This document shows, piece after piece, positions 41,657 through 57,158 of a stretch of DNA of 64,000 nucleotides. The stretch covers positions 3,100,001-3,164,000 of the forward strand of contig NZ_JAPELY010000001.1 in NCBI RefSeq assembly GCF_026343295.1. Reading direction: 5' to 3'. Positions within the stretch are counted from its first letter, which is position 1, and each line of letters begins with the position of its first letter. The position numbers were made by a program, and so were the translations under genes. The DNA comes from Streptomyces sp. NBC_00083 (GTDB lineage: Bacteria > Actinomycetota > Actinomycetes > Streptomycetales > Streptomycetaceae). The notes under the pieces were generated by a model, which saw nothing but the letters and a program-made list of their open reading frames with translations, was not told where the DNA came from and made no database searches.

Positions 41657-43285
41657 ATGGAGCTCTCCCCGTCCGCGCACGCCGACTCCTTCTGTCGTGA
41701 TCGGCTCCCTCCCTTCTCGCTCTGGCCCGAACTGCACTTCGATCTACCGGAGTTGCAGTACCCGGACCGGCTCAACGCGGCCCAGCGCCTGCTCGACGAC
41801 GCGGTCGAGCGGTGGGGCCCGGACCGCCCCTGTCTGCTGACGCCCACCGAACGCTGGACCTACGGCGACCTCCTGCGGCGCGCCAATCAGGTGGCCCGTG
41901 TCCTGACCGAGGACTTCGGAGTCAGGCCCGGACACCGGGTCCTGCTGCGCGGCCCGAACAACCCCTGGCTCGTGGTCACATGGTTCGGTGTGCTGAAGGC
42001 GGGCGCTGTCGCCGTCACCACCATGCCGCTGCTTCGCGCGAGCGAACTGTCGGAGCTGAGCGCCATCAGCCGCCCGTCCGTCGCCGTGTGCGACCACCGC
42101 TTCCTCACCGAACTCGCCGCCGCCGACGTATCGGGGATTCCCGTCATCGCCTACGGGGGCGACGGCGAGGACGACCTGGCGCGGCGCTGCGCCGACGCGA
42201 GCGGCGCGTTCACCGCCGTCGACACCGCCGCCGACGACGTGGCCCTCATCGCGTTCACCTCCGGCACGACGGGCCGCCCGAAGGCCACGCTCCATTTCCA
42301 TCGGGACATCCTGGCCAACGCGGACACATTCTCGCGCCACGTGCTGAAACCCCGTCAGGACGACGTGTTCACCGGCACACCACCCCTTGCGTTCACCTTC
42401 GGGCTCGGCGGCCTGGTGGTCTTCCCGCTGCACGTCGGGGCGTCGACGCTGCTGATCGAGCAGGCGGGCCCCGAGCGGCTGGCCGACCTCGTCGCCGAAC
42501 ACCGGGTGACCGTGCTGCTCACCGCTCCCACCGCCTACCGGGCGATCATGGCGGCGGGTGCCGCGGGCAAGCTCGCCGGAGTGCGCCGGTGTGTTTCGGC
42601 GGGTGAGGCGCTGCCCGCGCAGGTGTGGGAGGAGTTCCACGCCGCCACCGGGCACCGCATCATCGACGGCATCGGCGCCACGGAGATGCTCCACGTGTTC
42701 ATCTCCGCCGCCGACCAGGACATCCGCCCCGGCTCCACCGGCCGGCCGGTACCGGGGTTCCGGGCCCGGATCGTGGACGAGCGGGGGGACCCGGTGCCCG
42801 ACGGGCAGCCCGGTCTGCTGGCCGTCACCGGCCCCACCGGCTGCCGGTACATGGACGACCCGCGCCAGAGCACGTATGTGAGACACGGCTGGAACGTCAC
42901 GGGGGACACCTACATACGTGATGCCGAAGGCTACTTCTGGTACGTGGCCCGCAGTGACGACATGATCGTCTCGTCCGGCTACAACATCGCGGGGCCCGAG
43001 GTCGAGAAGGCCCTCGCCGTCCACCCCTGGGTCGACGAGTGCGGAGTCGTCGGCGTCCCGGACGCCAAGCGCGGCATGCTCGTCACGGCATATGTGGTGC
43101 TGCGCAAGGGAGTTGAGGCGGGCGAGGCGACCGTCACAGAGCTCCAGAACCATGTCAAGCAGACCATCGCGCCATACAAGTATCCGCGCGCGATCGAGTT
43201 CGTCGCCGAGCTGCCGCGCACCACCAACGGCAAGCTCCAGCGCGGCGAACTGCGCCGGCGAGCGGTCGGCTCCGCCGCGTCGTAG
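41657..43285 (+). CDS. aryl-CoA ligase (2-aminobenzoate/benzoate-CoA ligase type)
   Basis: 542 aa. ANL-superfamily AMP-binding motif TSGTTGRPK at 201-209, IGATEMLH near 334, TGDTY, DDMIVSSGYN, and the catalytic Lys526 in TNGKLQR. Length and the DPRQSTYVRHGWNVTGDTYIRDAEGYFWYVARSDDMI block resemble 2-aminobenzoate-CoA ligases (AbmG type) and related benzoate ligases; salicylate is also possible. It activates the ring acid to its CoA ester in the first committed step. GAGG precedes the ATG. Transcribed from the promoter at 41576-41617, together with the thioesterase 118 bp downstream. Confidence 0.88.
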   Translation: MELSPSAHADSFCRDRLPPFSLWPELHFDLPELQYPDRLNAAQRLLDDAVERWGPDRPCLLTPTERWTYGDLLRRANQVARVLTEDFGVRPGHRVLLRGPNNPWLVVTWFGVLKAGAVAVTTMPLLRASELSELSAISRPSVAVCDHRFLTELAAADVSGIPVIAYGGDGEDDLARRCADASGAFTAVDTAADDVALIAFTSGTTGRPKATLHFHRDILANADTFSRHVLKPRQDDVFTGTPPLAFTFGLGGLVVFPLHVGASTLLIEQAGPERLADLVAEHRVTVLLTAPTAYRAIMAAGAAGKLAGVRRCVSAGEALPAQVWEEFHAATGHRIIDGIGATEMLHVFISAADQDIRPGSTGRPVPGFRARIVDERGDPVPDGQPGLLAVTGPTGCRYMDDPRQSTYVRHGWNVTGDTYIRDAEGYFWYVARSDDMIVSSGYNIAGPEVEKALAVHPWVDECGVVGVPDAKRGMLVTAYVVLRKGVEAGEATVTELQNHVKQTIAPYKYPRAIEFVAELPRTTNGKLQRGELRRRAVGSAAS

Positions 43286-43403: not shown

Positions 43404-43895
43404 ATGCCCAAGACCGCCGCCCCCCACGGGGAGCCCGCCCCCGCCGAGAGCCCCGCCGCCGGAGGAACGCCCGGCGCACACCTGCCCAGTGTCGTGGTCG
43501 AGAGCCGCGTGGAGTGGCAGGACACCGACGCGGCCGGCCACTACCACCACTCCACGGTGGTCCGCTGGGCCGAGGCCGCCGAGGCCGTCCTGTTGCGGAG
43601 GCTGGGCCTCGCCCGCCTCTTCGGCAGCATCCCCCGGGTCCGCTTCGAGGCCGACTACCACGCGCGGCTCTGGTTCGGCGAAAGGGTGCTGACCGAACTG
43701 CGGGTCACCAAGGTCGGCACCAGCTCCCTCCACTACGCCTTCACGGTCAGGGGCGAGGGGGACGAGGCCGCAGCCACCGGACGCATGATCATCGCTCACT
43801 CCGCCGCCCGGTCCACCGCATCCAGCGCCTGGCCCGGCGACGTGCGTGAACTCCTCACCACCGCCGGCCCCCAGGCCCCGGAGCTGTACGCGTGA
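43404..43895 (+). CDS. 4HBT-type acyl-CoA thioesterase
   Basis: 163 aa from the ATG at 43404. After an Ala/Pro-rich leader the hot-dog motif VEWQDTDAAGHYHHSTVVRWAEAA (Asp and Gly of DxxGHxxxxxxxRW, about 36-60) is that of 4-hydroxybenzoyl-CoA thioesterase-like proteins. Similar genes accompany 2-aminobenzoyl-CoA and salicylyl-CoA pathways, where the enzyme frees CoA from the hydroxylated product or from dead-end thioesters. Here it would release gentisate or 5-hydroxyanthranilate for the ring-cleaving dioxygenase. It ends 17 bp before the promoter at 43912. Confidence 0.87.
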   Translation: MPKTAAPHGEPAPAESPAAGGTPGAHLPSVVVESRVEWQDTDAAGHYHHSTVVRWAEAAEAVLLRRLGLARLFGSIPRVRFEADYHARLWFGERVLTELRVTKVGTSSLHYAFTVRGEGDEAAATGRMIIAHSAARSTASSAWPGDVRELLTTAGPQAPELYA

Positions 43896-43980: not shown

Positions 43981-46377
43981 GTGCGCGTAGCAGTTATCGG
44001 AGGAGGGCCCGGCGGGCTGTACTTCGCGGCCCTGGCCAAGCAGCTCTCCCCGAGTTGGGACATCACCGTGTGGGAGCGCAACGCGCCGGACGACACGTTC
44101 GGATTCGGCGTGGTCTTCTCCGACGAGACGCTCGACGGCATCGCGCAGGCGGACCCCCGCGTCTTCGACGCCATGTCCGCGGAATTCGCGCGCTGGAGCG
44201 ACATCGACGTCCGCCACCGGGGCCAGGTCCTCACCTCGGGCGGCCACGGCTTCGCGGCGCTCGGCCGCAAGCGGCTGCTGCAGATCCTCCAGCAGCGGTG
44301 CGCGGCCCTGGACGTCGACGTCCGCTACCGCACCCAGGCGCCGCCGGTCGAGGAACTCTCCGCCCGGTACGACCTGGTGGTCGCGGGCGACGGAGTGCGC
44401 TCGGCGACACGCGCCACCTTCGCCGACACCTTCCGGCCCGAACTCGACGAGCGCACCTGCCGTTACATGTGGCTCGGCACCGACAAGGTCTTCGAAGCTT
44501 TCACCTTCATCGTCGCCGAAGGGGAGTTCGGGACCCTCCAGGTCCACGCCTACCCCTTCGACGACAGCCGCTCCACCTTCATCGTCGAGATCGACGAGGA
44601 GTCCTGGCGGCGCGCCGGTTTCGACGCGTTCGCGGACCGCGACCACCCGCCCGGCACCAGCGACGAGGACAGCATCGCGCTGTGCGAGCGCATACTCGCG
44701 GACCACCTCGACGGACACCGGCTGCTGCCCAACAACTCCAAGTGGATCCGCTTCACCACGGTCCGCAACGCCACCTGGCGCCACGACAACGTCGTGCTGC
44801 TCGGCGACGCCGCCCACACCGCGCACTTCTCCATCGGCTCCGGCACCAAGCTCGCCATGGAGGACTCGCTCGCACTCGCCGCCTGCCTCCACGAGCACCA
44901 GGACGTCGCCACGGCGCTCGCCGCGTACGAGAGCGAACGCAGGCCCGTCGTCGAGTCGACCCAGCGCGCCGCGCAGGCCAGTCTCGAATGGTTCGAGAAC
45001 GTCGGACGCTACACCGGCCAGGACCCGCACCAGTTCGCGTTCAACCTGCTCACCCGAAGCCGCCGGGTCACCTACGACAACCTTCGCGTACGCGACGAGG
45101 CGTTCACCCACGCGGTGGACGCCCGGCACGCCGCGGAGGCGGCGGCGGACCTCGCCGGGCCCGGCCCGGCGGACGCCCCGCCGATGTTCCGCCCCTTCCG
45201 GCTGGGCGGTCTGCGTCTGCGCAACCGGGTCGTCGCCCCGCCCGTCGCCCTCTACACCGCGCGCGACGGCGTGCCGGGCGACTTCGAACTCGTCCACCTG
45301 AGCACCCAGGCCGTCGGCGGCTCGGGCCTGGTGTTCGCCGGCATGACCGCCGTGAGCGCCGACGCCCGTGCCACCACCGGCTGCCCCGGGCTGTACACGG
45401 ACGAACAGGAAGCCGCCTGGCGGCGCATCGCGGACTTCGTCCATGAGCAGTCGGACGCCCGGCTGGGCATCCAGCTCACCCACGCGGGCCGCCGCGCCGC
45501 AGCCCAGCCACCCCGCCCCGGCGATGTCAATTATGCCTCTGAACAAGGCAGTTGGCCCTTGGTCGCGGCCTCACCGCTACCGTGGAACGAGAACAGTTCC
45601 GTCCCGCGTGAGGCCACCCGCGCGGACCTGGTCGCCATCACCCGCGACTTCGTCACCGCCGCCCGGCGCGCCGACCGCTGCGGCTTCGACGCCCTGGAAC
45701 TCCAGCTCGGCCACGGCCATCTGCTGTCCGGGTTCCTCTCACCGCTCACCAACACGCGCACCGACGCGTACGGCGGCGATCTGGCCGGGCGGATGCGCTT
45801 CCCGCTGGAGGTGCTGCGCGCGGTCCGCGCGGTCTGGCCCGCGGGCAAGGCGCTCCTCGTACGGATCTCCGCCACCGACTGGGCCGACGGAGGCACCAGC
45901 GAGGCGGACGCCGTCGAGATCGCGCGCCGGCTCGCCGAGGCCGGTGCGGACGCCATCGACGTGTCCACCGGCGAGGTCGTCGCCCATGAACGCCCCCGCT
46001 ACGGCCGCAGTTACCAGACGCCGTACGCCGACCTCATCCGCAACGCGACCGGCGTCCCGGTCGTCGCGGTCGGCGCGATCTCCACGTACGACGACGTGAA
46101 CTCGATCATCCTGGCCGGCCGTGCGGACCTCTGCGCGGTGGGCCGCGCCCAACTCCACGATCCGCTGTGGACGCTGCACGCCGCGGCGGCCCAGGGGTAC
46201 CGCGGCCCCGCCGCCCCCTGGCCCACGGCGTGGCGGGCCGGCAGCGGGCGCCCTCCCGGCGCGCGCACCGACCGTGTCCCGCCCCGCCTGCACCTGCTGC
46301 GGCAGCCGCCCGCTCCCGTGCACCAGCGCTGGCTTCCCCCGGCCCGCGCCACCGCCCTGCAGAGCGCGGCCCACTGA
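43981..46377 (+). CDS. bifunctional salicylyl-CoA 5-hydroxylase / flavin oxidoreductase (2-aminobenzoyl-CoA monooxygenase-reductase type)
   Basis: 798 aa from the GTG at 43981 (AGGAGG upstream). Domain 1, about residues 1-395: FAD-dependent aromatic hydroxylase with VIGGGPGGLYF (4-14), FGFGVVFSDETLDGI, and VVLLGDAAHTAHFSIGSGTKLAMED. Domain 2, from about 403: old-yellow-enzyme-like NADH:flavin oxidoreductase (MFRPFRLGGLRLRNRVVAPP, GIQLTHAGRR, LGHGHLLSGFLSPLTNTRTDAYGGDLAGRMRF). Exactly this fusion is known as 2-aminobenzoyl-CoA monooxygenase/reductase from Azoarcus and as a salicylyl-CoA 5-hydroxylase fusion in other bacteria. It hydroxylates C-5 and can partly reduce the ring. The last 60 residues (VPPRLHLLRQ... 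ending SAAH) are Pro/Arg-rich and look unlike the usual end. Start of the main catabolic operon. Confidence 0.9.
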   Translation: MRVAVIGGGPGGLYFAALAKQLSPSWDITVWERNAPDDTFGFGVVFSDETLDGIAQADPRVFDAMSAEFARWSDIDVRHRGQVLTSGGHGFAALGRKRLLQILQQRCAALDVDVRYRTQAPPVEELSARYDLVVAGDGVRSATRATFADTFRPELDERTCRYMWLGTDKVFEAFTFIVAEGEFGTLQVHAYPFDDSRSTFIVEIDEESWRRAGFDAFADRDHPPGTSDEDSIALCERILADHLDGHRLLPNNSKWIRFTTVRNATWRHDNVVLLGDAAHTAHFSIGSGTKLAMEDSLALAACLHEHQDVATALAAYESERRPVVESTQRAAQASLEWFENVGRYTGQDPHQFAFNLLTRSRRVTYDNLRVRDEAFTHAVDARHAAEAAADLAGPGPADAPPMFRPFRLGGLRLRNRVVAPPVALYTARDGVPGDFELVHLSTQAVGGSGLVFAGMTAVSADARATTGCPGLYTDEQEAAWRRIADFVHEQSDARLGIQLTHAGRRAAAQPPRPGDVNYASEQGSWPLVAASPLPWNENSSVPREATRADLVAITRDFVTAARRADRCGFDALELQLGHGHLLSGFLSPLTNTRTDAYGGDLAGRMRFPLEVLRAVRAVWPAGKALLVRISATDWADGGTSEADAVEIARRLAEAGADAIDVSTGEVVAHERPRYGRSYQTPYADLIRNATGVPVVAVGAISTYDDVNSIILAGRADLCAVGRAQLHDPLWTLHAAAAQGYRGPAAPWPTAWRAGSGRPPGARTDRVPPRLHLLRQPPAPVHQRWLPPARATALQSAAH

Positions 46378-46391
46378 ACCCGGAGGGACCC

Positions 46392-47447
46392 ATGGAAACC
46401 CTGCCCCGCTTCACCGCGGCCGCCGTCCAGGCCGCCCCCGTCTACCTCGACCCCGACGCCACCGTCGACAAGGCCCTCGCCCTCATCGCCGAAGCGGCGG
46501 CGGGCGGCGCCACCCTCGTCGTCTTCCCCGAGGTGTTCATCCCCGGATATCCGTACTGGAACTGGACGATGAACCCGGTCCAGGGCTCGCCCTGGTTCGA
46601 GCGCCTGTACCGCTCGTCCATCGATGTGCCCGGCCCCCATGTGGACGCCCTGCGCGCAGCCGCCCGCCGGCACGGTGTCGTTCTCGTCATCGGCGTCAAC
46701 GAACGCGACCCAGACCGCCTCGGCACGCTCTACAACACGCTCCTCACCATCGGCCCCGACGGTGAACTGCTCGGTGTGCACCGCAAGTTGGTGCCCACCT
46801 GGGCCGAGAAGCTCACCTGGACCGGCGGCGACGGAAGCTCCCTCACGGTGCACTCCACCCCCGTCGGACGGCTCGGCGCGCTCGCCTGCGGCGAGAACAC
46901 CAACACGCTCGCCCGCTTCGCCCTCCTCGCCCAGGGCGAACTCGTCCACGCGTCCTGCTACATCTCGCTCCCCGTCGCCCCCGCCGACTACGACATGGCC
47001 GACGCCATCGCGGTGCGCACCGCGGCGCACAGCTTCGAGGGCAAGGTGTTCTCCGTCGTGGCCTGCTCGACCATCTCTCCGGAGATCGCCGACACCATCG
47101 CCGGCGACGACGAGGAGCTGCGCCGCACGCTGGCCCGCCCCCGCAGCGCGCTGTCCGGCATCTTCGGGCCCGACGGGCGTCCCGTCACCGAGCCGCTCGT
47201 GGACGACGAGGGCATCGTCTACGCGGAGATCGACCTGGCCAGATGCATCCAGCCCAAGCAGATGCACGACATCCTCGGCCACTACAACCGCTTCGACGTC
47301 TTCCAGCTCCACGTCGACAACCGCCCCCGCCCCCCGGTGACCTTCGCGACCGACCCCGCTCGCGCGTCGGCGCCGCCGGCCACGGCGCCCCTGGCCGCCG
47401 AGCACGACGGCACCACCAATCCCGGTACCAAGAAGGAGGACGCATGA
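46392..47447 (+). CDS. nitrilase-family carbon-nitrogen hydrolase
   Basis: 351 aa. Catalytic triad Glu47 (FPEVFIPGYPYW), Lys132 (HRKLVPTW) and Cys166 (LACGENTN), as in true nitrilases of about 340 aa; the PGYPYW loop and E..HRK spacing support nitrilase over amidase. It may make the aromatic acid from a nitrile, or remove a nitrogen later in the path. The ATG follows GGAGGG; its stop overlaps the dioxygenase start (ATGA, 47444-47447), so the two are translationally coupled, which argues that nitrile or amide hydrolysis belongs to this pathway. Which C-N bond is cut cannot be told from sequence. Confidence 0.85.
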   Translation: METLPRFTAAAVQAAPVYLDPDATVDKALALIAEAAAGGATLVVFPEVFIPGYPYWNWTMNPVQGSPWFERLYRSSIDVPGPHVDALRAAARRHGVVLVIGVNERDPDRLGTLYNTLLTIGPDGELLGVHRKLVPTWAEKLTWTGGDGSSLTVHSTPVGRLGALACGENTNTLARFALLAQGELVHASCYISLPVAPADYDMADAIAVRTAAHSFEGKVFSVVACSTISPEIADTIAGDDEELRRTLARPRSALSGIFGPDGRPVTEPLVDDEGIVYAEIDLARCIQPKQMHDILGHYNRFDVFQLHVDNRPRPPVTFATDPARASAPPATAPLAAEHDGTTNPGTKKEDA

Positions 47448-48556
47448 CCACCGAGCAGGACGACACCATGCTGGGCCGTGCCCGCGTCAGCGACACCCCG
47501 GAACTCACCGCCTACTACGGCGAACTCGCCGAGCTCGACGCGGGCGCGCTGTGGACCGTCGCCAACGACATCGAACCCTGGTACCCGCAGCCCAAGTCCG
47601 TGCCCGTGCTGTGGCGTTACGACGAACTGCGCCCGCTGGTCCACAAGGCGCTGCACCTGGTCGAGGCCGATGACGCGGGACGCCGCGTGGTCATGCTCGT
47701 CAACCCGGGCCGCAAGGACGTCAGCGCCGCCGCCGGACTCCTCTACACCGGGCTGCAGATCATGGGCCCGGGGGAGGCCATGACCGCCCACCGCCACCAG
47801 GCGGCCGCGCTGCGCTTCGTCCACGAAGGCACCGGTGCGTGGACCGTCGTCGACGGCCAGAAGCTGAGGGTCGGGCCCGGCGACTTCGCCATCACGCCCA
47901 ACGGCACCTGGCACGAGCACGGCAACGAGAGCGAGGACGCCCCCGTCATCTGGCAGGACGGCCTCGACATACCGCTGGTCAACTCCCTGGACGCCGGTTT
48001 CTACGAGGTCCACCCCGACCTCTACCAGGCACCCGGCAAGGTCATCAACTCCTCGGTGCTCAGCTACGGCGGAAACCTGCTGCCCTACGGCGTGGAGAAG
48101 TGGACCCGTCCCTACTCGCCGCTGCTCGCCTTCCCCTGGGAGCCGACGTACGAGGCGCTGCGCAACCTGGCGAAGGCGAGCGCGGGCTCGCCCTACGACG
48201 GGGTCATCGCGGAGTACACCAACCCGCTCACCGGCGGCCCGGTCATGCCCACGATGGGCGCCCACCTGCAGTTGCTGCGGGCCGGCCAGTCCACCCGGGC
48301 ACACCGCCACACCGGCTCGGTCATCTACACCGCGGCCAAGGGACACGGCTACTCCGTCGTCGCGGGACAGCGCTTCACCTGGAAGAAGGGCGACATCTTC
48401 TGTGTGCCCTCCTGGGCCTGGCACGAGCACCACAACCTCGACCAGGACGAGGACGCCTGCCTCTTCTCCTTCAACGACTTCCCCGTGATGCGCTCCCTCG
48501 GCTTCCACCGCGAAGAGGCCTACACCGACAACGACGGCCGCCAGAGAGCCGGTTGA
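47444..48556 (+). CDS. gentisate 1,2-dioxygenase-type bicupin
   Basis: 370 aa, bicupin, the length of gentisate dioxygenases. First cupin: AHRHQAAALRFVHEG and TWHEHGNE with ligands His116, His118, His157 (and His159). Second cupin: AHRHTGSVIYTAAKGHG and WAWHEHHNLDQDED. The first-cupin HRH...H set is the Fe site in this family; the ring is cut between the carboxyl-bearing and the adjacent hydroxylated carbon. 5-Hydroxyanthranilate and 5-nitrosalicylate dioxygenases belong to the same family, so the true substrate may be gentisate or its 2-amino analogue. GGAGG precedes the ATG. Confidence 0.88.
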   Translation: MTTEQDDTMLGRARVSDTPELTAYYGELAELDAGALWTVANDIEPWYPQPKSVPVLWRYDELRPLVHKALHLVEADDAGRRVVMLVNPGRKDVSAAAGLLYTGLQIMGPGEAMTAHRHQAAALRFVHEGTGAWTVVDGQKLRVGPGDFAITPNGTWHEHGNESEDAPVIWQDGLDIPLVNSLDAGFYEVHPDLYQAPGKVINSSVLSYGGNLLPYGVEKWTRPYSPLLAFPWEPTYEALRNLAKASAGSPYDGVIAEYTNPLTGGPVMPTMGAHLQLLRAGQSTRAHRHTGSVIYTAAKGHGYSVVAGQRFTWKKGDIFCVPSWAWHEHHNLDQDEDACLFSFNDFPVMRSLGFHREEAYTDNDGRQRAG

Positions 48557-48764: not shown

Positions 48765-49676
48765 ATGCGACTGGTGACCTACACCCTCAACGACGACGGA
48801 CCGCACCTGCTCGGCGCCCAGCTCGACGACGACCACATCGTCGACTTCGCCGTCCTGTCCGAGCGGACCGGCGTACGCCTTCCCCTCGACCTCCTGTCGT
48901 TCGTCCGCGCCGGAGAGCCCGCGCTGGAGGCGGTACGACGGCTCCTGGCCGACGGCCCGGCCGGCGCGCCCGCCGAAGCGCTGCGCCGCACCGGTGAGGT
49001 GTCGCTGCGCGCCCCGCTCCGCCCCGGCAAGATCATCGGGGTCGGGCTCAACTACGTGGAGCACGTCGCCGAGTCCAGCCGCAGCCTCGACACCGACAAG
49101 GAACTGCCGCCCCGCCCGGTGCTCTTCAGCAAGCCCGCCACCGCCGTCACGGGGCCGGGCCGGCCGATCCTGCACAACGCCGACCTGACCACGCAACTCG
49201 ACTGGGAGTGCGAACTCGCCGTGGTCATCGGCCGCAGCGCCTTCCGCGTCAGCGAGGAGGAGGCGTACGGCCACATCTTCGGCTACAGCATCCTCAACGA
49301 CATCAGCGCCCGCGACCAGCGCCGCTCGGGGCAGTGGTTCTTCTCCAAGGGCCAGGACTCCTACGCGCCGTTCGGCCCGGCCGTGGTCACCGCAGACGAG
49401 CTGAGGGACCCCATGGCGCTCGACCTGTCGCTGCGCGTCAACGGCGTCGTCAAGCAGAAGTCCAACACCCGGCACATGCTCTTCCCCATCGCGCGCCTCA
49501 TCGCCGACATCTCCTCCGGCATGACCCTGGAACCCGGCGACGTCATCGCCACCGGCTCCCCCTCGGGCGTCGGCGCGGGCATGGTGCCGCCCGAGTTCCT
49601 GCACCCCGGCGACACGGTCGAAGCCACCGTCGAAGGCATCGGCACCCTCACCAACCCCGTGATCGACGCCCGCTGA
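48765..49676 (+). CDS. FAH-family hydrolase (probable maleylpyruvate / fumarylpyruvate hydrolase)
   Basis: 303 aa; AAGGAG before the ATG. The FAH core is clear: KIIGVGLNYVEHV, LDWECELAVVIG with metal ligands Glu148 and Glu150, NDISARDQ with Asp about 179, and VIATGSPSGVGAGM. In gentisate routes these proteins hydrolyse fumarylpyruvate or, in the isomerase-free branch, maleylpyruvate itself. No maleylpyruvate isomerase (GST-like or DinB-like) is present in the cluster, and a maleate isomerase follows, so direct hydrolysis of maleylpyruvate to maleate and pyruvate is the better reading. Confidence 0.87.
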   Translation: MRLVTYTLNDDGPHLLGAQLDDDHIVDFAVLSERTGVRLPLDLLSFVRAGEPALEAVRRLLADGPAGAPAEALRRTGEVSLRAPLRPGKIIGVGLNYVEHVAESSRSLDTDKELPPRPVLFSKPATAVTGPGRPILHNADLTTQLDWECELAVVIGRSAFRVSEEEAYGHIFGYSILNDISARDQRRSGQWFFSKGQDSYAPFGPAVVTADELRDPMALDLSLRVNGVVKQKSNTRHMLFPIARLIADISSGMTLEPGDVIATGSPSGVGAGMVPPEFLHPGDTVEATVEGIGTLTNPVIDAR

Positions 49677-49722: not shown

Positions 49723-50499
49723 GTGCCGCACCCCACCTACCGCATCGGCCAGATCGTGCCGAGCTCCAACGTCACCATGGAGACCGAGGTCCCGGCCATC
49801 CTCCGGGCCCGCGAGACCGTTGCACCCGAACGCTTCACCTTCCACTCCAGCCGCATGCGCATGACCCATGTCACCCCGGAGCAGCTCAAGGCCATGGACG
49901 CCGACTCCGACCGGTGCGCGGTGGAACTCTCCGACGCCCACGTCGATGTGCTCGGCTACGCCTGCCTCGTGGCGATCATGAGCATGGGTCTCGGCTACCA
50001 CCGCACCTCCGAAACCCGTCTGCACCGGCGGACGGTGGAGAACGGCGCGCCCGCCCCCGTCGTCACCAGCGCCGGGGCACTCATCCACGGCCTGAACACC
50101 CTGGGGGCGAAGAAGATCGCGCTGATCGCCCCGTACATGCGGCCGCTCACCCGGACCGTCGTGGACTACCTCACCCACGAAGGCATCGAAGTCCTCGACT
50201 ACACCGCCCTCGAAATACCCGACAACCTCGACGTGGCCGCCCACGACCCCGCCCGCCTGCCCGGCCTCGCCCGCGCCCTCGACCACAGCGACGCCGACGC
50301 CGTCGTGCTCTCCGCCTGCGTGCAGATGCCCTCGCTCGGCGCCATCGACGAAGCCGAACAGCTCCTCGGCAAGCCCGTCGTCTCCGCGGCCGTCTGCACC
50401 GCCCACCAGATGCTCCGGGCGCTCGGCCTGCCCGCCGTCGCCCCGGGAGCCGGGCACCTCCTGTCCGGTGCGTACGCGGAGGCGCCGTTGGCCCGCTGA
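49723..50499 (+). CDS. maleate cis-trans isomerase (Asp/Glu racemase superfamily)
   Basis: 258 aa from the GTG at 49723 (AAGGA upstream). The two catalytic cysteines are in place: Cys81 (YACLVAIM) and Cys199 (SACVQMPS), at the spacing of known maleate isomerases (MaiA/NicE), with VPSSNVTMETE at the N-terminus. It would turn maleate into fumarate for the citric-acid cycle. Combined with the FAH-type hydrolase before it, this gives a cofactor-free end to ring degradation. Most gentisate pathways end with fumarylpyruvate or with a maleate hydratase, so this pairing is uncommon. Confidence 0.87.
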   Translation: MPHPTYRIGQIVPSSNVTMETEVPAILRARETVAPERFTFHSSRMRMTHVTPEQLKAMDADSDRCAVELSDAHVDVLGYACLVAIMSMGLGYHRTSETRLHRRTVENGAPAPVVTSAGALIHGLNTLGAKKIALIAPYMRPLTRTVVDYLTHEGIEVLDYTALEIPDNLDVAAHDPARLPGLARALDHSDADAVVLSACVQMPSLGAIDEAEQLLGKPVVSAAVCTAHQMLRALGLPAVAPGAGHLLSGAYAEAPLAR

Positions 50500-50603: not shown

Positions 50604-51428
50604 ATGTCGGAAAGCCCGCTTCGGCCCAGCTCGTTGATCAACACGATCTACGGGGCGTTCCTGCGTGGCCTCGGCGGCTGGGTCTCCATCGCCGACCTGA
50701 TCACCCTGATGTCCGAACTGGACGTCGAGGGCCCGGCGGTGCGCTCCGCGATGTCCCGTCTGAAGAAGCGCGGCGTCCTGGAGCCCGAGCGGCGCGGCGC
50801 CACCGGCTACGTGCTGAGCCCGGCCGTCCACGCCGTCTTCGACGAGGGCGACCGGCGCATCTTCAACAGCCTCGAACCGGCCGCCCTGAGCGACGGCTGG
50901 GCGATGGCCGTCTTCTCCGTCCCGGAGTCCGAACGCTCCTCGCGCTACCAGCTGCGCACCCGGCTGAGCTGGCTCGGCTTCGGGAACATCGCCCCCGGCG
51001 TGTGGCTCGCGCCCGGCCGGCTGCTCGACGACGCCCGAGCCATGCTCGTACGCCTGGAACTCAGCGACTACGTCCACCTCTTCGCCGCCGAGTACGCCGC
51101 CTTCAGCGACCTGCGGACCAACGTCAGCACCTGGTGGGACTTCCCGGCGATCCAGACCCAGTACGCGGCCTTCGCCGACACCTACGGCCCCGTCGCCGAG
51201 CGCCTGGCACGGCCCGGCGACATCGACCCCGCCGACGCCTTCCGCAGCTACGTGCCGATGCTGACCCAGTGGCGGCGGCTGCCCTACCTCGACCCGGGCC
51301 TGCCCACCGAGCTGCTGCCCCCCGACTGGAACGCGGTCACGGCGCGCCCCATCTTCCAGCGCCTGCACGACGTGCTCGCCGAGCCGAGCAGGCGTCACGT
51401 CCAGCAGATCACCGGGCTCCAGGCGTAG
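50604..51428 (+). CDS. PaaX family transcriptional regulator
   Basis: 274 aa. N-terminal winged helix: SSLINTIYGAFLRGLGGWVSIADLITLMSELDVEGPAVRSAMSRLKKRGVLEPER; the middle has YVLSPAVHAVFDEGDRRIF, and the C-terminal domain has the ERSSRYQLRTRLSWLGFGNIAPGVWLAP pattern of PaaX. PaaX proteins repress phenylacetate-type catabolism and usually sense an aryl-CoA thioester; here the effector could be salicylyl-CoA or 2-aminobenzoyl-CoA. It is the best candidate to read the repeated promoter at 35289, 41576 and 43912. Own promoter is not marked by that motif. Last gene of the catabolic block on this strand. Confidence 0.9.
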   Translation: MSESPLRPSSLINTIYGAFLRGLGGWVSIADLITLMSELDVEGPAVRSAMSRLKKRGVLEPERRGATGYVLSPAVHAVFDEGDRRIFNSLEPAALSDGWAMAVFSVPESERSSRYQLRTRLSWLGFGNIAPGVWLAPGRLLDDARAMLVRLELSDYVHLFAAEYAAFSDLRTNVSTWWDFPAIQTQYAAFADTYGPVAERLARPGDIDPADAFRSYVPMLTQWRRLPYLDPGLPTELLPPDWNAVTARPIFQRLHDVLAEPSRRHVQQITGLQA

Positions 51429-51500: not shown

Positions 51501-51590
51501 CAAGTGTCCTGAAACCATCGCTCCGCTGCCGGGCGCGGATCCCCAAGTCCTGGCCGACCGACCCATTGCACCACTCCCTATGAGGTGAGC

Positions 51591-52538
51591 ATGGCAATCC
51601 TCCGGTTGGTGGCACGACGACTCCTCTCGTCCGCGCCCCTGTTGTTCCTCGTGTCCGCACTCACCTTCGTCCTGGTGTCCCTGGTGCCCGGAGATCCCGC
51701 CCGAACGATCGTGGGCCAGCACGCGACGGCCGAGCAATATGCCGCCGTACGAAGCCAGTTGGGGCTCGACGACTCCTTGCCGGCGCAGTACTGGCACTGG
51801 ATGGCGCACGCCCTCCACGGCGACCTCGGCTCCTCCCTGTTCAGTGGGGAAGCGGTGACCGCGGTCCTGAACGCACGACTTCCCGTGTCGCTCTCCCTCA
51901 TCGTCGCGGGCACCCTCGTCTCCGGGATCCTGGGCGTCTCTCTGGGCGTGCTCACCGCGCGCCGGGGTGGATTTCTCGTCAGGATCGTCGACGGTCTCTC
52001 CCTCGTCGGTCTCGCGGTGCCGGCCTTCTGGTTCGCGCTCGTCCTGATCGCGGTCCTCGCCGTGAAGCTGCGGTGGTTCCCGGTCACCGGATACGTGCCG
52101 CTGACCGAGGATCCGGTCCAGTGGGCCCGCTGCCTCGTGCTGCCCGTGGTGTCGCTGTCCCTCGGCACCGTCGCCATGATCGCCAAGCAGACCAGGGACT
52201 CGGTCCTCGACACCCTCGGCCGGGACTTCGTCCGTGTCATGCAGGCCAACGGCTTCTCCCGCCGCTCCATCCTCTACCGGCACGTGCTGCGCAACGCCGC
52301 CCTGCCGGTGGTGACCGTGCTCGGCGTGGTCCTGATCAGCCTGCTCGCCACCGCCGTGTTCGTGGAGACGGTGTTCGCCATGCCCGGCCTCGGCCTCCTG
52401 ACCCAGCAGGCCACGATCCAGCACGACATCCCCGTCATTCAGGGAGCCGTTCTCTACATCACCGTGCTGGTCGTCGTGGTCAACCTGCTCGTCGACCTGA
52501 CCTACCGCCAACTCGACCCCAGGGTGCGTACGTCATGA
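51591..52538 (+). CDS. oligopeptide-type ABC transporter permease 1
   Basis: 315 aa from the ATG at 51591 (GAGG upstream). DppB/OppB pattern: an N-terminal helix followed by VLVSLVPGDPARTIVGQHATAEQYAAVRSQLGLDDSLPAQYWHWM, then six helices and the EAA loop GRDFVRVMQANGFSRRSILYRHVLRNAALPVVT. Its last four bases overlap the next gene's start (ATGA, 52535-52538). First gene of the importer operon controlled by the LacI-type site at 51487. Confidence 0.9.
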   Translation: MAILRLVARRLLSSAPLLFLVSALTFVLVSLVPGDPARTIVGQHATAEQYAAVRSQLGLDDSLPAQYWHWMAHALHGDLGSSLFSGEAVTAVLNARLPVSLSLIVAGTLVSGILGVSLGVLTARRGGFLVRIVDGLSLVGLAVPAFWFALVLIAVLAVKLRWFPVTGYVPLTEDPVQWARCLVLPVVSLSLGTVAMIAKQTRDSVLDTLGRDFVRVMQANGFSRRSILYRHVLRNAALPVVTVLGVVLISLLATAVFVETVFAMPGLGLLTQQATIQHDIPVIQGAVLYITVLVVVVNLLVDLTYRQLDPRVRTS

Positions 52539-54490
52539 ACCGGACCACCGCGGCGACCGCCGCTCCCACCCCCGCACCCACCCCCGCACCCGCCTCCTCC
52601 GGCCCCGGCCTGGCCCGGCGCGTCCTGCGACGCCCGGCCGGGGCGCTGAGCGCCGGCTGGCTCGTCCTCCTGACGCTCGCCACCACCGGGGCGTCCGTGA
52701 TCGCCCCGCACGGCCCGCTCGACCAGGACCTCGGCAGCGTCCTCGCCGGACCCTCGGGCGGCCACTGGCTCGGCACCGACAACCTCGGCCGTGACCTGCT
52801 CAGCCGACTGCTCTTCGGCGGACGCTCCACCCTGCTGGCCGTGGCCGAGGCGCTCGCCGTCTACCTGCTCATCGGTGTGAGCCTGGGGCTGGCGTCCGGA
52901 TACCTCGGGGGCTGGGCCGACCGGATCACCACCCGGGCAGCGGATCTCCTGTTCGCCCTGCCCGGCATCATCATCGTCCTCGTGGTCCTGTCGGTCTTCC
53001 CCGGCAATCTGCATGCCGCGATGGTCACCTTCGCCGTCCTCGGCAGTCCGGGCATGATGCGCGTCCTGCGCTCCCAAACCCTCGGGATCCGTGGGGAGTT
53101 GTATGTCGCGGCCGCCAAGGTCGCGGGGCTGACGTCCGGTCGGATCCTGCGGCGGCACGTCCTTCCGCGGCTGACCAGCACGGTGATCGTGCAGGCGGCG
53201 CTCTTCGCCGCGATCGTCGTCATCATCCAGGCGGGACTCGGCTTCCTCGGCCTCGGCGCGCAGCCGCCGGACCCCTCCTGGGGCGGCCTCGTGGCCGACG
53301 CCTCGCAGATCATCGACCGTGACCCGTGGATGCTGGTCCCCGCCGGTGTGCCGCTGGTCCTCACCGTGCTGGCCCTCGGCATGCTCGGCGACACGATCCG
53401 GGACGCGGCCATCGCACGCTGGTCCGTCCCGCAGATGGCGGGACCGCGGACCGCCCCGCCGATCCGAGCGGGCGCCACCCCCTCCTCGGCCCCCGAGGCC
53501 GCCGACGAACCCGACCCGGACGCGCTGATCTCCGTACGCGGCCTCTCCGTGGAGATCGCCGGGACACCCGTCGTGCAGAACGTCAGCTTCGACGTACGGG
53601 CGGGTGAAACCCTCGGCGTGGTGGGGGAGTCGGGGTGCGGCAAGTCGGTCACCTCCCTCTCACTCCTCGGGCTCGTCCCGGGCGGGGGACACATCTCGGG
53701 CGGGCGCGTCGTGTTCGACGGCACCGACCTGGTCGGCGCGCCCGCAGCCCTCGGCGCCGTCCGGGGATCGCGGATCGCGTACGTCTCGCAGGAGCCGATG
53801 GTCGCACTCGATCCCACGTACACCGTCGGGCAGCAACTCGGCGAAGCCGTCCGGCACCACCGGCGGCTGCGCGGCCAGGCTCTGAGCGCACGGGTGACGG
53901 AGCTCCTGACGATGGTCGACATCCCCGATCCGGCGGCCGTCGCGCTGCGCCATCCGCATCAGCTCTCCGGCGGCATGGCCCAGCGCGTCGCCATCGCGCT
54001 CGCCCTCGCCGGCGACCCGGAGCTGCTGATCGCGGACGAGCCCACCACCGCGCTCGATGTGACCGTGCAGGCGGAGATCCTCACGCTGCTGCGCACCCTC
54101 CGCACCGAGACCTCCCTCGCGGTGCTCATCGTCACGCACGACTGGGGCGTGGTCGCCGACCTGTGCCACCGGGCGGTCGTGATGTACGCCGGGCAGGTCG
54201 TGGAGCAGGCCGGTGTCGAGGCCATGTTCGACCAGCCGCTCCACCCGTACACGGCGGGGCTTCTGGCCGCCAACCCCCACTTGGCGAGTGAAGGAGAGGC
54301 CCTGCCCACCATCCCCGGCGCCGTGCCCGCCCCGCGCGACTGGCCCTCGGGCTGCCGCTTCGCGCCCCGCTGCACCCTGGCCACCGGCCGGTGCACCGAC
54401 CGGGCGATCACCCTGACACGACCCGCGCCGGGCCGGCTCACCCGCTGTGTCCACTCCTCGCAGCTCCTCCCGGAAGGCGCCGACTCATGA
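52535..54490 (+). CDS. fused oligopeptide ABC transporter permease 2 and ATPase
   Basis: 651 aa. Residues 1-300 are a DppC/OppC permease: [21 protein letters not shown], six helices, EAA loop [28 protein letters not shown] Pro/Ala-rich linker (300-328) joins it to a DppD-type ATPase from about 330: Walker A GESGCGKS near 364, LSGGMAQR near 478, and LLIADEPT near 500, with the Cys-containing C-terminal region of oligopeptide ATPases ([14 protein letters not shown]). Normally these are separate proteins; the fusion fixes their ratio one to one. ATGA overlaps with both neighbours. Confidence 0.9.
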
Positions 54491-55563
54491 CAAGCCCGCC
54501 CGTCCTGGACATCCGCGACCTCAGCGTCGTGTTCCCACAGGGCCGTCGCCTTCCCCCGCTGCACGCCGTGGACGGCGTCTCCCTGAGCATCGCGCCGGGC
54601 GAGACGGTGGGCCTCGTCGGCGAATCCGGATCGGGCAAGTCCACGATCGGGCGTGCCGTCCTCGGCCTGGCCCCCGTGCACGCCGGCCGGATCGACTTCG
54701 AGGGCACCGACATCACCCGTGCCCGGCCCCGCGACAGGCGAGAGCTGAGCGCCCGGCTGCAGGTGGTCTTCCAGGACCCGTACTCCTCCCTCAACCCGGC
54801 CCGGACGATAGGCCAGACCCTCGCCGAGCCGCTGCTCGTCCACCAGAGCCTCGACGCACGCGCGACGGCGCTCCACATCGCCGACATGCTGCGACGGGTC
54901 GGCATGCCCGCCGACACCGCGAGCCGCTACCCCGGTCAGTTCTCCGGCGGGCAGCGTCAGCGCATCGCCATCGCCCGCGCCCTCATGCTCCGCCCGAGCC
55001 TGGTCATCTGCGACGAACCGGTCAGCGCGCTCGACCTGTCCATCCAGGCCCACATCATGAACCTGCTGGGCGAGTTGCAGCGCGAGCTCGGCCTGGGCTA
55101 CCTCTTCATCGCGCACGACCTGTCCGTCGTGCGCCACCTCTCGCACCGCATCGTGGTCCTGCACCGCGGCCAGGTCATGGAGTCGGGCCCGGCGCCCGCG
55201 CTGTACGCCGACCCCGTCCACCCCTACACCCGCGCGCTTCTCGACGCCGTACCCGAACCCGACCCCCGGGCCCAGCGCGCCCGCAGGCCGGCCCGGTCCG
55301 CGGCCGCCTCCACCGGCGCGCCCGCACCGGGCGGCTGCACCTTCGTCCACCGCTGCGCGCACGCCGTGGAGGTGTGTCACCGCGAGCGGCCCGCTCTGCT
55401 GCCGCTGCCCGGCGCGGGCGCCGACTCCGGACAGCGGCTCGTGGCGTGCCACCGGTCCGCGGAACTGCGCGCACCGGCCGGTGCGAGGAACGACCCACCC
55501 GGCGATCTGCCCACGGCTGTGGGCCCCACAGGTAAGGAAGCGCCATGCCCAGCAAGCGAATGA
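54487..55563 (+). CDS. oligopeptide-type ABC transporter ATPase
   Basis: 358 aa. DppF/OppF family: Walker A GESGSGKS (43-50 region), Q-loop [12 protein letters not shown], signature FSGGQRQR, Walker [13 protein letters not shown], and the Cys motif [10 protein letters not shown] near residue 294. It starts in an ATGA overlap with the fusion gene and overlaps the following lipoprotein gene by 19 bp. Works with the fused ATPase to drive uptake. Confidence 0.92.
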
Positions 55564-57125
55564 CCCAGCGCGTGACCCGGCGCACGACCGGCGGCCTCGC
55601 GGCACTCGCGATGCTCGCCGTCGGCGCCACGGCCTGCTCGGGATCCGGCGCGGGATCCGGCGCGTCCGGCCACGGCCAGGGGGACACGCTCACCGTGGTC
55701 TCCCTCAGCGCGCCGGCCAGCCTCGACCCCGCGAAGGCGAACGTCGGCTCCGACAACTGGTTCGTCAACCTCACCTACGACACCGTCCTGCGTCAGCGGA
55801 GGGACGGGACGGCGGGGCCGGGCCTCGCCACGACGTTCGGCTATGTGGGCTCCGGCAACACGGAGTTCGAGTTCACCCTGCGCGGCGGCCTCAGGTTCGC
55901 CGACGGCAGCGCGCTCGACGCCAAGGCGGTGGCGAACTCCCTCGACTACAGCCGCAAGAACGGCCTCAACGTCTCCTGGACCTCGGCGATCGCCTCCGTG
56001 ACCGCGACCGGGCCCCTCACCGTACGGATCCACTGCTCAAGCCCCAACCCCATGCTGCCCCAGCTGCTGACCCAGCTCCTCATGATCGGCTCGGTGATCA
56101 GCCCCAAGGGCCTGGCCCGGCCGGGACTCATGGGCACCCAGTCGTTCGGGGCCGGCCCCTACGTCCTCGACGCGGCGAACAGCGCGTCCGGAGACCACTA
56201 CACGTACAGGCCCAACGCGAACTACTGGGACAAGACGAAGATCCACTGGAAGAAGGTGGTCATCAAGGTCGTGTCCAACCCCAACTCCGCGCTCCAGGCC
56301 GTCAGGACCGGCCAGGCGGAGGTGATGGGCATCTCGGCCAACCAGGTCGACACAGCGCGCGCCGGCGGTCTCGACGTGGTCGGTTCGCCCAACGCGGTAC
56401 TCGGCCTCAACCTCGCCGACCGCAACGGGAGTTCGGCCAAGCCGCTCGCCGACGTACGGGTGCGGCAGGCGCTGAACTACGCCGTCGACCGCGACGCCAT
56501 CACCAAGGCCGTCGTCGGGGGCCACGGTCACTCCACCGACGAGATCTCCCTGCCCGGCCTCGACGGATACGCCGCCGACTACGACCGCCACTACACCTAC
56601 GATCCGGCGAAGGCCATGCGCCTGCTCGCCGAGGCGGGGTACCCCCACGGCTTCCCCCTGAAGGTCGAGACGCAGGGGTTCTTCGGCGTCGACCTCGTCA
56701 CGCAGGCCGTCGTGGAGCAGTGGAAGAAGATCGGCGTCACCGCGGAGGTCACCACCGACACCAGCATCGGTCAGTGGCTCACCAACGCGACCTCCAAGAA
56801 GTTCCCCGTCCTCGGCTTCGGCTACGGCGGCGCCACGACGTACGCCCTGTCCCTCGACTGGATGCTGCCGCACCCCACGGCCTTCAACCCCTTCGCCACG
56901 TCGGACCCCAAGCTCACCGGCGTGCTCGCGGCCGCGGCCGCCGCCGCACCGGACCGGCAGGGCGCCCTCTACCAGGACGCGATGCGCTACGCCGTCGACC
57001 AGGCGTGGTTCGTCTCCGTCATGCGCATGGACGGCCTGTACGCCTACAACGGCAAGAAGCTGACCGGCTTCGACGTCAAACCCGGCTACCTCCCCGACCT
57101 CGCCTGGGAGGTGGCGCCCAAGTAG
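55545..57125 (+). CDS. family 5 solute-binding lipoprotein
   Basis: 526 aa; AAGGAA precedes the ATG. Lipoprotein signal: basic start, hydrophobic [14 protein letters not shown] with lipid-bearing Cys31. The mature chain is a class C binding protein of the DppA/OppA type: [70 protein letters not shown]. It captures the substrate for the ABC importer. With LacI control and a place next to an aromatic cluster, the ligand may be other than peptides (family 5 proteins also bind sugars, nickel, opines and glycosides). Confidence 0.9.
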
Positions 57126-57158
57126 AGCCATGGTGGGCGGAGTTGGAGCCACGACTCG

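Follow-up and report, generated by a model that had tools for sequence, protein, structure and literature searches.

The window analysed here is a stretch of 64,000 nucleotides from Streptomyces sp. NBC_00083. It carries a single same-strand run of genes, all on the forward strand, that extends from an aryl-CoA ligase to a PaaX-family regulator and encloses a nitrilase-superfamily hydrolase and a bicupin ring-cleaving dioxygenase. The ligase (41657..43285) scored 377.9 bits against the TIGR02262 benzoate-CoA ligase family (cut-off, 375.25) and may act on anthranilate. It is followed by a 4HBT-fold acyl-CoA thioesterase (43404..43895; PF13279/PF03061 above the gathering scores), a candidate 5-hydroxyanthraniloyl-CoA thioesterase, and by a two-domain FAD monooxygenase/OYE protein with a GTG start (43981..46377; PRK08255, PF01494, and PF00724), a candidate anthraniloyl-CoA 5-hydroxylase. 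This hydroxylase belongs to the salicylyl-CoA 5-hydroxylase family PRK08255, scoring 1104.4 bits against a curated cut-off of 1078, by a model that may not separate it from aminobenzoyl-CoA monooxygenase. Next come the nitrilase-superfamily protein (46392..47447; 351 aa, C-G-E-N motif) and the dioxygenase (47444..48556; 370 aa), which matched PDB 3bu7 with 524 bits and falls in its clade. Their proposed activities are those of a maleamate/maleamylpyruvate amidase and a 5-hydroxyanthranilate 1,2-dioxygenase. Downstream lie a fumarylacetoacetate-hydrolase-family (FAA) C-C hydrolase (48765..49676; PF01557, 241.2 bits) that would act on maleamylpyruvate or maleylpyruvate, a maleate cis-trans isomerase (49723..50499; 353 and 349 bits to PDB 4fq7 and 4fq5), and the regulator (50604..51428; three PaaX Pfam domains), whose ligand may be an aryl-CoA, as PaaX-type regulators often sense such compounds. 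The isomerase has the active-site Cys of SACVQMPS, a position that is Ala in the 4fq5 sequence. At E 1e-6, the window held neither an indolepyruvate-type oxidoreductase nor a cyclase-fold protein, both markers of auxin degradation (iad), and no homologue of the isochorismatase-fold maleamate amidase was found in it. On the same strand after the regulator, at about 51585-57128, the translations point to a peptide-type ABC transporter.

The nitrilase and dioxygenase genes meet at AAGAAGGAGGACGCATGACC, where the TGA stop codon of the former and the ATG start codon of the latter overlap (47444..47447, forward strand). An AAGGAGG stretch resembling a ribosome-binding site lies close 5' of the dioxygenase start, and both frames are open and complete. 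The shared ATGA described in the initial annotation is therefore present, as is the catalytic triad that it reported as intact (Glu47/Lys132/Cys166), with Glu139 as the second catalytic Glu. The protein that carries these four residues scored 142.4 bits against PF00795 (gathering cut-off, 23.2). Overlaps of -4 are common within operons, however, and say little alone.

A scan of 84,980 species genomes returned at least 571 relatives of the nitrilase, of which we took the best 80, 69-91% identical over the best segment. Because it holds best matches only, all titled Actinomycetota, this set of loci is a biased sample. Neighbours were counted at ≥40% identity, and 15 of the 80 loci are shorter than 20 kb and lie at contig ends. 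The dioxygenase was found near the nitrilase in every locus (80/80), the FAA hydrolase in 78, and the maleate isomerase in 72, with differing gene orders and strands; the hydroxylase (71/80), thioesterase (70/80), ligase (67/80), and PaaX regulator (59/80) were also frequent. The nitrilase and dioxygenase genes are adjacent on the same strand in 58 loci. Forty-eight of these pairs have the -4 overlap, three have gaps of 13-45 bp, and seven were left unresolved by the script. Twenty of the 80 loci have the nitrilase on one strand and the dioxygenase on the other, so co-translation is not required for function, though the linkage is kept. The overlap is thus real, but the earlier claim that the two products are made together is an extrapolation from it, and the association of the genes is far stronger evidence than the ATGA itself.

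The association extends beyond the Actinomycetota. Eight proteobacterial plasmid records contain the nitrilase at 60-80% identity, and all eight contain the dioxygenase, which is partial in one. All seven of the proteobacterial loci that we opened hold the nitrilase, dioxygenase, FAA hydrolase, and maleate isomerase together. Nine loci whose nitrilases are 42-56% identical to the window protein (L009-L012, L099, and L131-L134) had none of these neighbours. At two of the nine, L133 (6916-9068, Bradyrhizobium) and L134 (7986-10012, Rhizobium), a CGEN nitrilase directly adjoins a molybdopterin-dependent oxidoreductase, and one is also near in L132.

Within the genus, each protein was searched separately in 150 genomes, the window's own included (nitrilase, E ≤1e-120; dioxygenase, E ≤1e-50; maleate isomerase, E ≤1e-40; hydroxylase, E ≤1e-60). 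The nitrilase was detected in 14 genomes and a dioxygenase homologue in 41, with ≥70% identity in 14. These are the same 14 genomes, and in each of them the matched stretches are no more than 42 bp apart. The other 27 dioxygenase-bearing genomes have only copies of 35-52% identity and are without this nitrilase. The maleate isomerase occurs in 22 genomes, and its copies of ≥70% identity fall in the same 14; the isomerase is within 2.4 kb of the pair in 13 of them and 232 kb off in one, with an FAA hydrolase adjoining. Thirteen of the 14 also have a hydroxylase of ≥78% identity. Among 296 phylum genomes sampled more sparsely, 10 matched the dioxygenase at E 1e-60, only the window's own with >46% identity, and four other nitrilases (43-51%) were without such neighbours. 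Homologues of the first half of the hydroxylase were found in 140 of the 150 genus genomes at the same E ≤1e-60, which suggests a broadly kept oxygenase of unassigned role in the genus. The window's own genome has such a second homologue (G000:C2:1645140-1646258), 62% identical and in an open frame of 1073 aa.

As controls, we used five regions of the genus that pair a distant (36-38%) dioxygenase with a hydroxylase of 50-52% identity within about 5 kb. We take these to be salicylyl-CoA/gentisate clusters of the sdg type. They have a ligase, a flavin hydroxylase, a cupin dioxygenase, and an FAA hydrolase in common with the window operon, with the FAA hydrolase and an adenylating-ligase homologue (27-29%) in all five and a PaaX-type regulator in L186 and L187. 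Unlike the window, none of the five contains the nitrilase or the maleate isomerase at E 1e-6, and all five hydroxylases are one-domain proteins that have the FAD domain but lack the OYE domain. Among the control neighbours scanned, a mycothiol-dependent maleylpyruvate isomerase was found in L188 and L190. The one control ligase scanned (L189) was nearest to dihydroxybenzoate-adenylating enzymes, with 615 bits, under the 723.55 cut-off. The isochorismatase-fold marker was matched weakly (30%) in L190, and the deformylase marker over a short stretch in L188. The window therefore departs from an actinomycete salicylate/gentisate cluster in having a two-domain hydroxylase and a maleate isomerase instead of a one-domain hydroxylase and a mycothiol-dependent isomerase. 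From this gene content, isomerisation seems to precede C-C hydrolysis in gentisate-type clusters and would follow it in the window cluster. Neither the nitrilase nor the maleate isomerase was found at eleven further distant-dioxygenase loci (L115-L120 and L122-L126) or at L191, where the dioxygenase is 52% identical.

The genes that accompany this lower pathway vary. Among the 80 actinobacterial loci, 66 have both the ligase and the hydroxylase, and two of these (L070 and L087) also have an indolepyruvate-type oxidoreductase. Three have the hydroxylase and the oxidoreductase with no ligase seen (L061, L064, and L086; in L061 the oxidoreductase lies at the edge of the stretch), two have the hydroxylase alone (L076 and L088), and one has the ligase without the hydroxylase. 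A 1171-aa protein of L076 proved to be a protein kinase/MalT-like protein and not a fused indolepyruvate oxidoreductase, and L076, L085, and L088 were not counted as oxidoreductase-bearing. Five of the seven proteobacterial loci (L093, L097, L098, L127, and L128) also contain the oxidoreductase. Its alpha subunits scored 275 and 272 bits, under the curated indolepyruvate oxidoreductase cut-off of 650.9. A Cyclase-family protein (PF04199, shown for L086, L087, and L098) lies near the oxidoreductase in L086, L087, L064 (partly), L097, L098, and L127, and PF04199 is the fold of isatin hydrolase. The ligase and the oxidoreductase could each supply an aryl-CoA, and a path from isatin through isatinate to anthraniloyl-CoA is conceivable. 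In the Variovorax auxin locus, IadI likewise carries the annotation of a kynurenine formamidase (PMC12633357).

Tryptophan genes accompany the core in two loci. L043 encodes a tryptophan 2,3-dioxygenase (above the Pfam cut-off; 280 against 390.7 for NCBIfam), a kynureninase-like protein (210 against 246.4 bits, from a frame that may be incomplete as read), and a regulator nearest to AndR of anthranilate metabolism (173 against 350 bits). L050 has a tryptophan 2,3-dioxygenase and a regulator similar to that of L043. These upstream genes would suit an amino-substituted ring better than salicylate. Both loci contain the core genes and no hydroxylase in the DNA examined, and a route through 5-hydroxytryptophan or 5-hydroxykynurenine is possible there. 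More generally, where no hydroxylase is visible, the cluster may take in a compound that already bears the hydroxyl group, or the gene may lie outside the cluster. L079 may have yet another upstream module, since its nitrilase-dioxygenase core lies beside a luciferase-type monooxygenase, a thiamine-diphosphate enzyme, and two proteins with flavin-reductase domains. We also considered whether the Ruegeria pomeroyi cluster (L093, on a megaplasmid) lies beside the auxin-binding MarR protein 3CDH and rejected this, as the two MarR proteins there are PDB 3BOQ and 3E6M. An R. pomeroyi iorA mutant (SPOA0111), which may be that of the iorA in L093, is listed under auxin signalling in a fitness study (PMC10041152).

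The maleate isomerase offers a second line of comparison. The window protein is 70% identical to a homologue on a plasmid of Shinella HZN7 that also carries a nicotine dehydrogenase. On that plasmid, the isomerase sits with an isochorismatase-fold protein, which we take to be of the known maleamate-amidase type. A homologue of this protein is present in 7 of 10 other genus regions that have a maleate isomerase at 52-61% identity, and two of the three regions that lack it are cut by contig ends. None was found in the 87 nitrilase-dioxygenase loci, where the nitrilase is the sole recurring amide-type hydrolase among the proteins looked at. None of the three Shinella lower-pathway proteins besides the isomerase had a homologue in the 87 loci at E 1e-8.

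The sequence C-W-E at the catalytic Cys is the motif of branch-1 nitrilases, and the window protein has Gly where Trp is usual. All 88 dioxygenase-linked clade members, the window's included, have CGENTN at this site; CGE also occurs in 6 of 10 nitrilases unlinked to the dioxygenase, and the remaining unlinked proteins have CWEN or CWEH. The C-W-E motif is not strict, because the solved nitrilase 6zby has CAE. The window protein scored 240.4 bits against the Nit6803-type model TIGR04048, well under its cut-off of 502.6. It shares its sequence family and the Glu-Lys-Glu-Cys residues with the nitrilase branch of PDB 8uxu, 6zby (NitA), and 3wuy, and differs from that branch in having Gly in place of the usual Trp. 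In a tree of 41 of the 101 nitrilases, for which the program warned of long branches, 28 dioxygenase-linked CGEN nitrilases formed one group (bootstrap 92, SH-aLRT 93; just below the 95/80 mark). An unlinked Polaromonas protein adjoins this group, and the other unlinked CGEN proteins fall outside it. The linked nitrilases of Tistrella, Aminobacter, and Novosphingobium lie on a distant CWEN branch. In these genera, a 3bu7-clade dioxygenase and a CWEN nitrilase occur inside one 19-kb region, which we read as a probable second recruitment. Three loci (L094, L096, and L101) combine a 3bu7-clade dioxygenase with a CWEN-type nitrilase, a flavin-reductase-like protein, and an FAA hydrolase; they have no maleate isomerase and may represent a second pathway variant. 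For the EBC191 nitrilase, the pertinent section of PMC6930498 reports that bulky or charged residues at position 165, beside Cys164, left the amide product only in traces. The position after the Cys thus matters, but Gly there does not imply an amidase.

The dioxygenase scored 319.7 bits against the gentisate 1,2-dioxygenase model TIGR02272, under the cut-off of 442.1. It has two three-His sites, HRH116/H157 and HRH287/H327. Residues H116, H118, H157, Q105, R124, H159, and D172 are kept in 85 of 85 linked dioxygenases, from which three fragments had been dropped, and in 11 of 11 distant ones. The iron-binding and substrate-contacting roles of these residues were taken from PMC10306065 on salicylate dioxygenase and mapped by eye. 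The window protein thus has the three iron His and the Gln, Arg, His, and Asp contacts of a gentisate 1,2-dioxygenase. Comparison of the active sites gave residues specific to the clade (E158, Q171, and others), none of which tells a 2-OH substrate from a 2-NH2 one. The C-terminal cupin of the window protein keeps HRH...HEH and may allow two iron sites, as reported for the Ruegeria enzyme; the second His of this site is replaced by Gln in 8 of 85 linked relatives.

Cupin gentisate dioxygenases cut the ring between the carboxyl-bearing C1 and C2, and the C2 hydroxyl becomes an acid. The same cleavage of 5-hydroxyanthranilate would give an amide, so the nitrilase-superfamily enzyme is most likely an amidase acting on maleamylpyruvate or maleamate. 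The initial annotation had envisaged an enamine or amide from this cleavage. The chemistry gives neither an enamine nor a nitrile, and we rejected enamine deamination because, after a cut between C1 and C2, the nitrogen is still bound to the newly formed acyl carbon. We also rejected the idea that the nitrilase deaminates 5-hydroxyanthranilate to gentisate, since the family acts on nitrile or amide carbons.

Collectively, these comparisons suggest that the operon probably converts anthranilate to fumarate and pyruvate, retaining the amino group until the ring has been opened and using the nitrilase as an amidase. The CoA ligase would form anthraniloyl-CoA, the two-domain monooxygenase would hydroxylate it at C5, and the thioesterase would release 5-hydroxyanthranilate. 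The bicupin dioxygenase would then cut between C1 and C2, turning the C2 amino group into the carboxamide of maleamylpyruvate. The FAA hydrolase would remove pyruvate to leave maleamate, and the nitrilase-superfamily enzyme would cleave the amide to give maleate and ammonia, either at this stage or earlier, on maleamylpyruvate; the order of these two steps is provisional. Finally, the maleate isomerase would yield fumarate.

Of the two readings offered initially, nitrogen removal after ring cleavage is the one that the comparative evidence favours, as a deduction from it. The other, an aromatic nitrile as the starting compound, would have a true nitrilase feed the pathway by converting 2-aminobenzonitrile, 2-hydroxybenzonitrile, or indole-3-acetonitrile to the acid on which degradation begins. 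The best solved relatives are indeed nitrilases, and indole-3-acetonitrile would suit the related clusters that have an indolepyruvate-type oxidoreductase and a MarR protein, as iad loci do. However, the gene keeps with the dioxygenase (80/80) and the FAA hydrolase (78/80) even without a ligase, hydroxylase, or oxidoreductase, and this reading is unsupported, given that the 8 of 80 loci lacking both ligase and hydroxylase still have the gene together with the lower pathway. The change from CWE to CGE in all 88 linked members also speaks against it, although the same change is seen in 6 of 10 unlinked proteins, and those CGEN relatives that have no dioxygenase nearby are placed outside the linked group. 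We therefore consider a true nitrilase unlikely. Action on an amide upstream of ring cleavage, such as anthranilamide, salicylamide, or an N-acyl anthranilate, would call for amide chemistry as well, and the tryptophan/kynurenine route of L043 needs removal of a formyl group. But in L043 an alpha/beta hydrolase, distinct from the nitrilase, is already encoded next to the tryptophan dioxygenase, and the nitrilase tracks the lower pathway across loci with different upstream genes, which makes this explanation highly improbable.

The operon could also encode an ordinary salicylate-to-gentisate route with the nitrilase-like protein as an accessory of unrelated or lost function. The hydroxylase does exceed the salicylyl-CoA 5-hydroxylase cut-off, and the dioxygenase keeps the checked gentisate-contacting residues and is related to a protein deposited as a gentisate dioxygenase. 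We nevertheless give this explanation only a small chance, given the one-domain hydroxylases of the five salicylate-type clusters of the genus and their lack of nitrilase and maleate isomerase, the retained catalytic residues of the nitrilase, and its near-perfect linkage.

Several points weigh against conversion of anthranilate through direct opening of 5-hydroxyanthranilate. Gentisate is not excluded as a substrate by the dioxygenase sequence, because the residues that bind the carboxylate and the 5-hydroxyl are kept. The Ruegeria pomeroyi member of the clade is PDB 3bu7 itself, deposited as a gentisate 1,2-dioxygenase and reportedly active on gentisate. The nearest solved relatives of the nitrilase by sequence are nitrilases and not amidases, enzymes of that branch are usually poor on amides, and CGE is no marker of an amidase, being found in 6 of 10 unlinked nitrilases. 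The DNA examined shows neither ligase nor hydroxylase at 8 of the 80 loci, neither ligase nor oxidoreductase at L076 of Rhodococcus opacus, and the hydroxylase in L097 alone among the seven proteobacterial loci. Cupriavidus taiwanensis L095 and Sulfitobacter alexandrii L100 have a 3bu7-clade dioxygenase and no nitrilase homologue on the plasmids (the chromosomes were not searched). The 14-of-14 match in the genus does not represent 14 independent events, as the sampled genomes are related; a chance figure of 1/C(150,14) leaves common descent out of account and is not to be taken as a probability. A different, monocupin enzyme, 5-nitrosalicylate dioxygenase, does not act on 5-hydroxyanthranilate according to the passage of PMC10306065 that describes it. 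Older reports, as summarised in the papers that cite them, have anthranilate converted to gentisate (Cain 1968, cited in PMC4539516), in Alcaligenes as well (Claus and Kutzner 1983, cited in PMC8383072).

Beyond the window, we tentatively propose, at close to an even chance, a widespread route in Actinomycetota and on proteobacterial plasmids in which 5-hydroxyanthranilate is opened directly, ammonia is released later by a nitrilase-branch amidase, and the 3bu7 clade is misnamed. No description of this route was found among the matches listed in full-text searches; most subscription journals lie outside that coverage, and it may be in print. If the route is real, it would serve as a shared sink for anthranilate, whether formed from tryptophan, isatin, or indoleacetate. 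Members of the 3bu7 clade would be 5-hydroxyanthranilate 1,2-dioxygenases, and the names of two enzyme clades would be corrected in many genomes. It would also explain a nitrilase inside a ring-cleavage operon and assign genes to an anthranilate route otherwise known from a 1968 study. A nitrilase-branch enzyme would stand in the place of maleamate amidase, one family replacing another at the same step.

Among known systems, the lower pathway of nicotinate and nicotine degradation consists of 2,5-dihydroxypyridine dioxygenase, N-formylmaleamate deformylase, maleamate amidase, and maleate isomerase. Its closing steps, from maleamate to maleate to fumarate, are those proposed here, with a maleate isomerase of the same family. 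There, an isochorismatase-fold protein fills the amidase slot and the ring is a pyridine, whereas here the slot would be filled by a nitrilase-superfamily protein and the ring is a benzene. The 2-aminobenzoyl-CoA monooxygenase/reductase pathway of Azoarcus evansii and Arthrobacter Rue61a resembles the proposed route in the attack of a flavoenzyme on anthraniloyl-CoA, and its enzyme has the same two-domain make-up as the window hydroxylase. In the part of PMC3534580 that treats this pathway, 5-hydroxyanthraniloyl-CoA is formed at limiting NADH. The corresponding section of PMC4539516 describes a non-aromatic product that then undergoes beta-oxidation, and mentions no ring-cleaving dioxygenase. 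A further precedent is that of Nocardia opaca, for which 5-hydroxyanthranilate was reported as an intermediate (Cain 1968, as cited in PMC4539516). Under its current name, Rhodococcus opacus, this species carries the core cluster (L076), accompanied by a hydroxylase and a thioesterase. The intermediate would thus be the same; in the cited account the route runs via gentisate, whereas here the nitrogen would be lost after ring cleavage.

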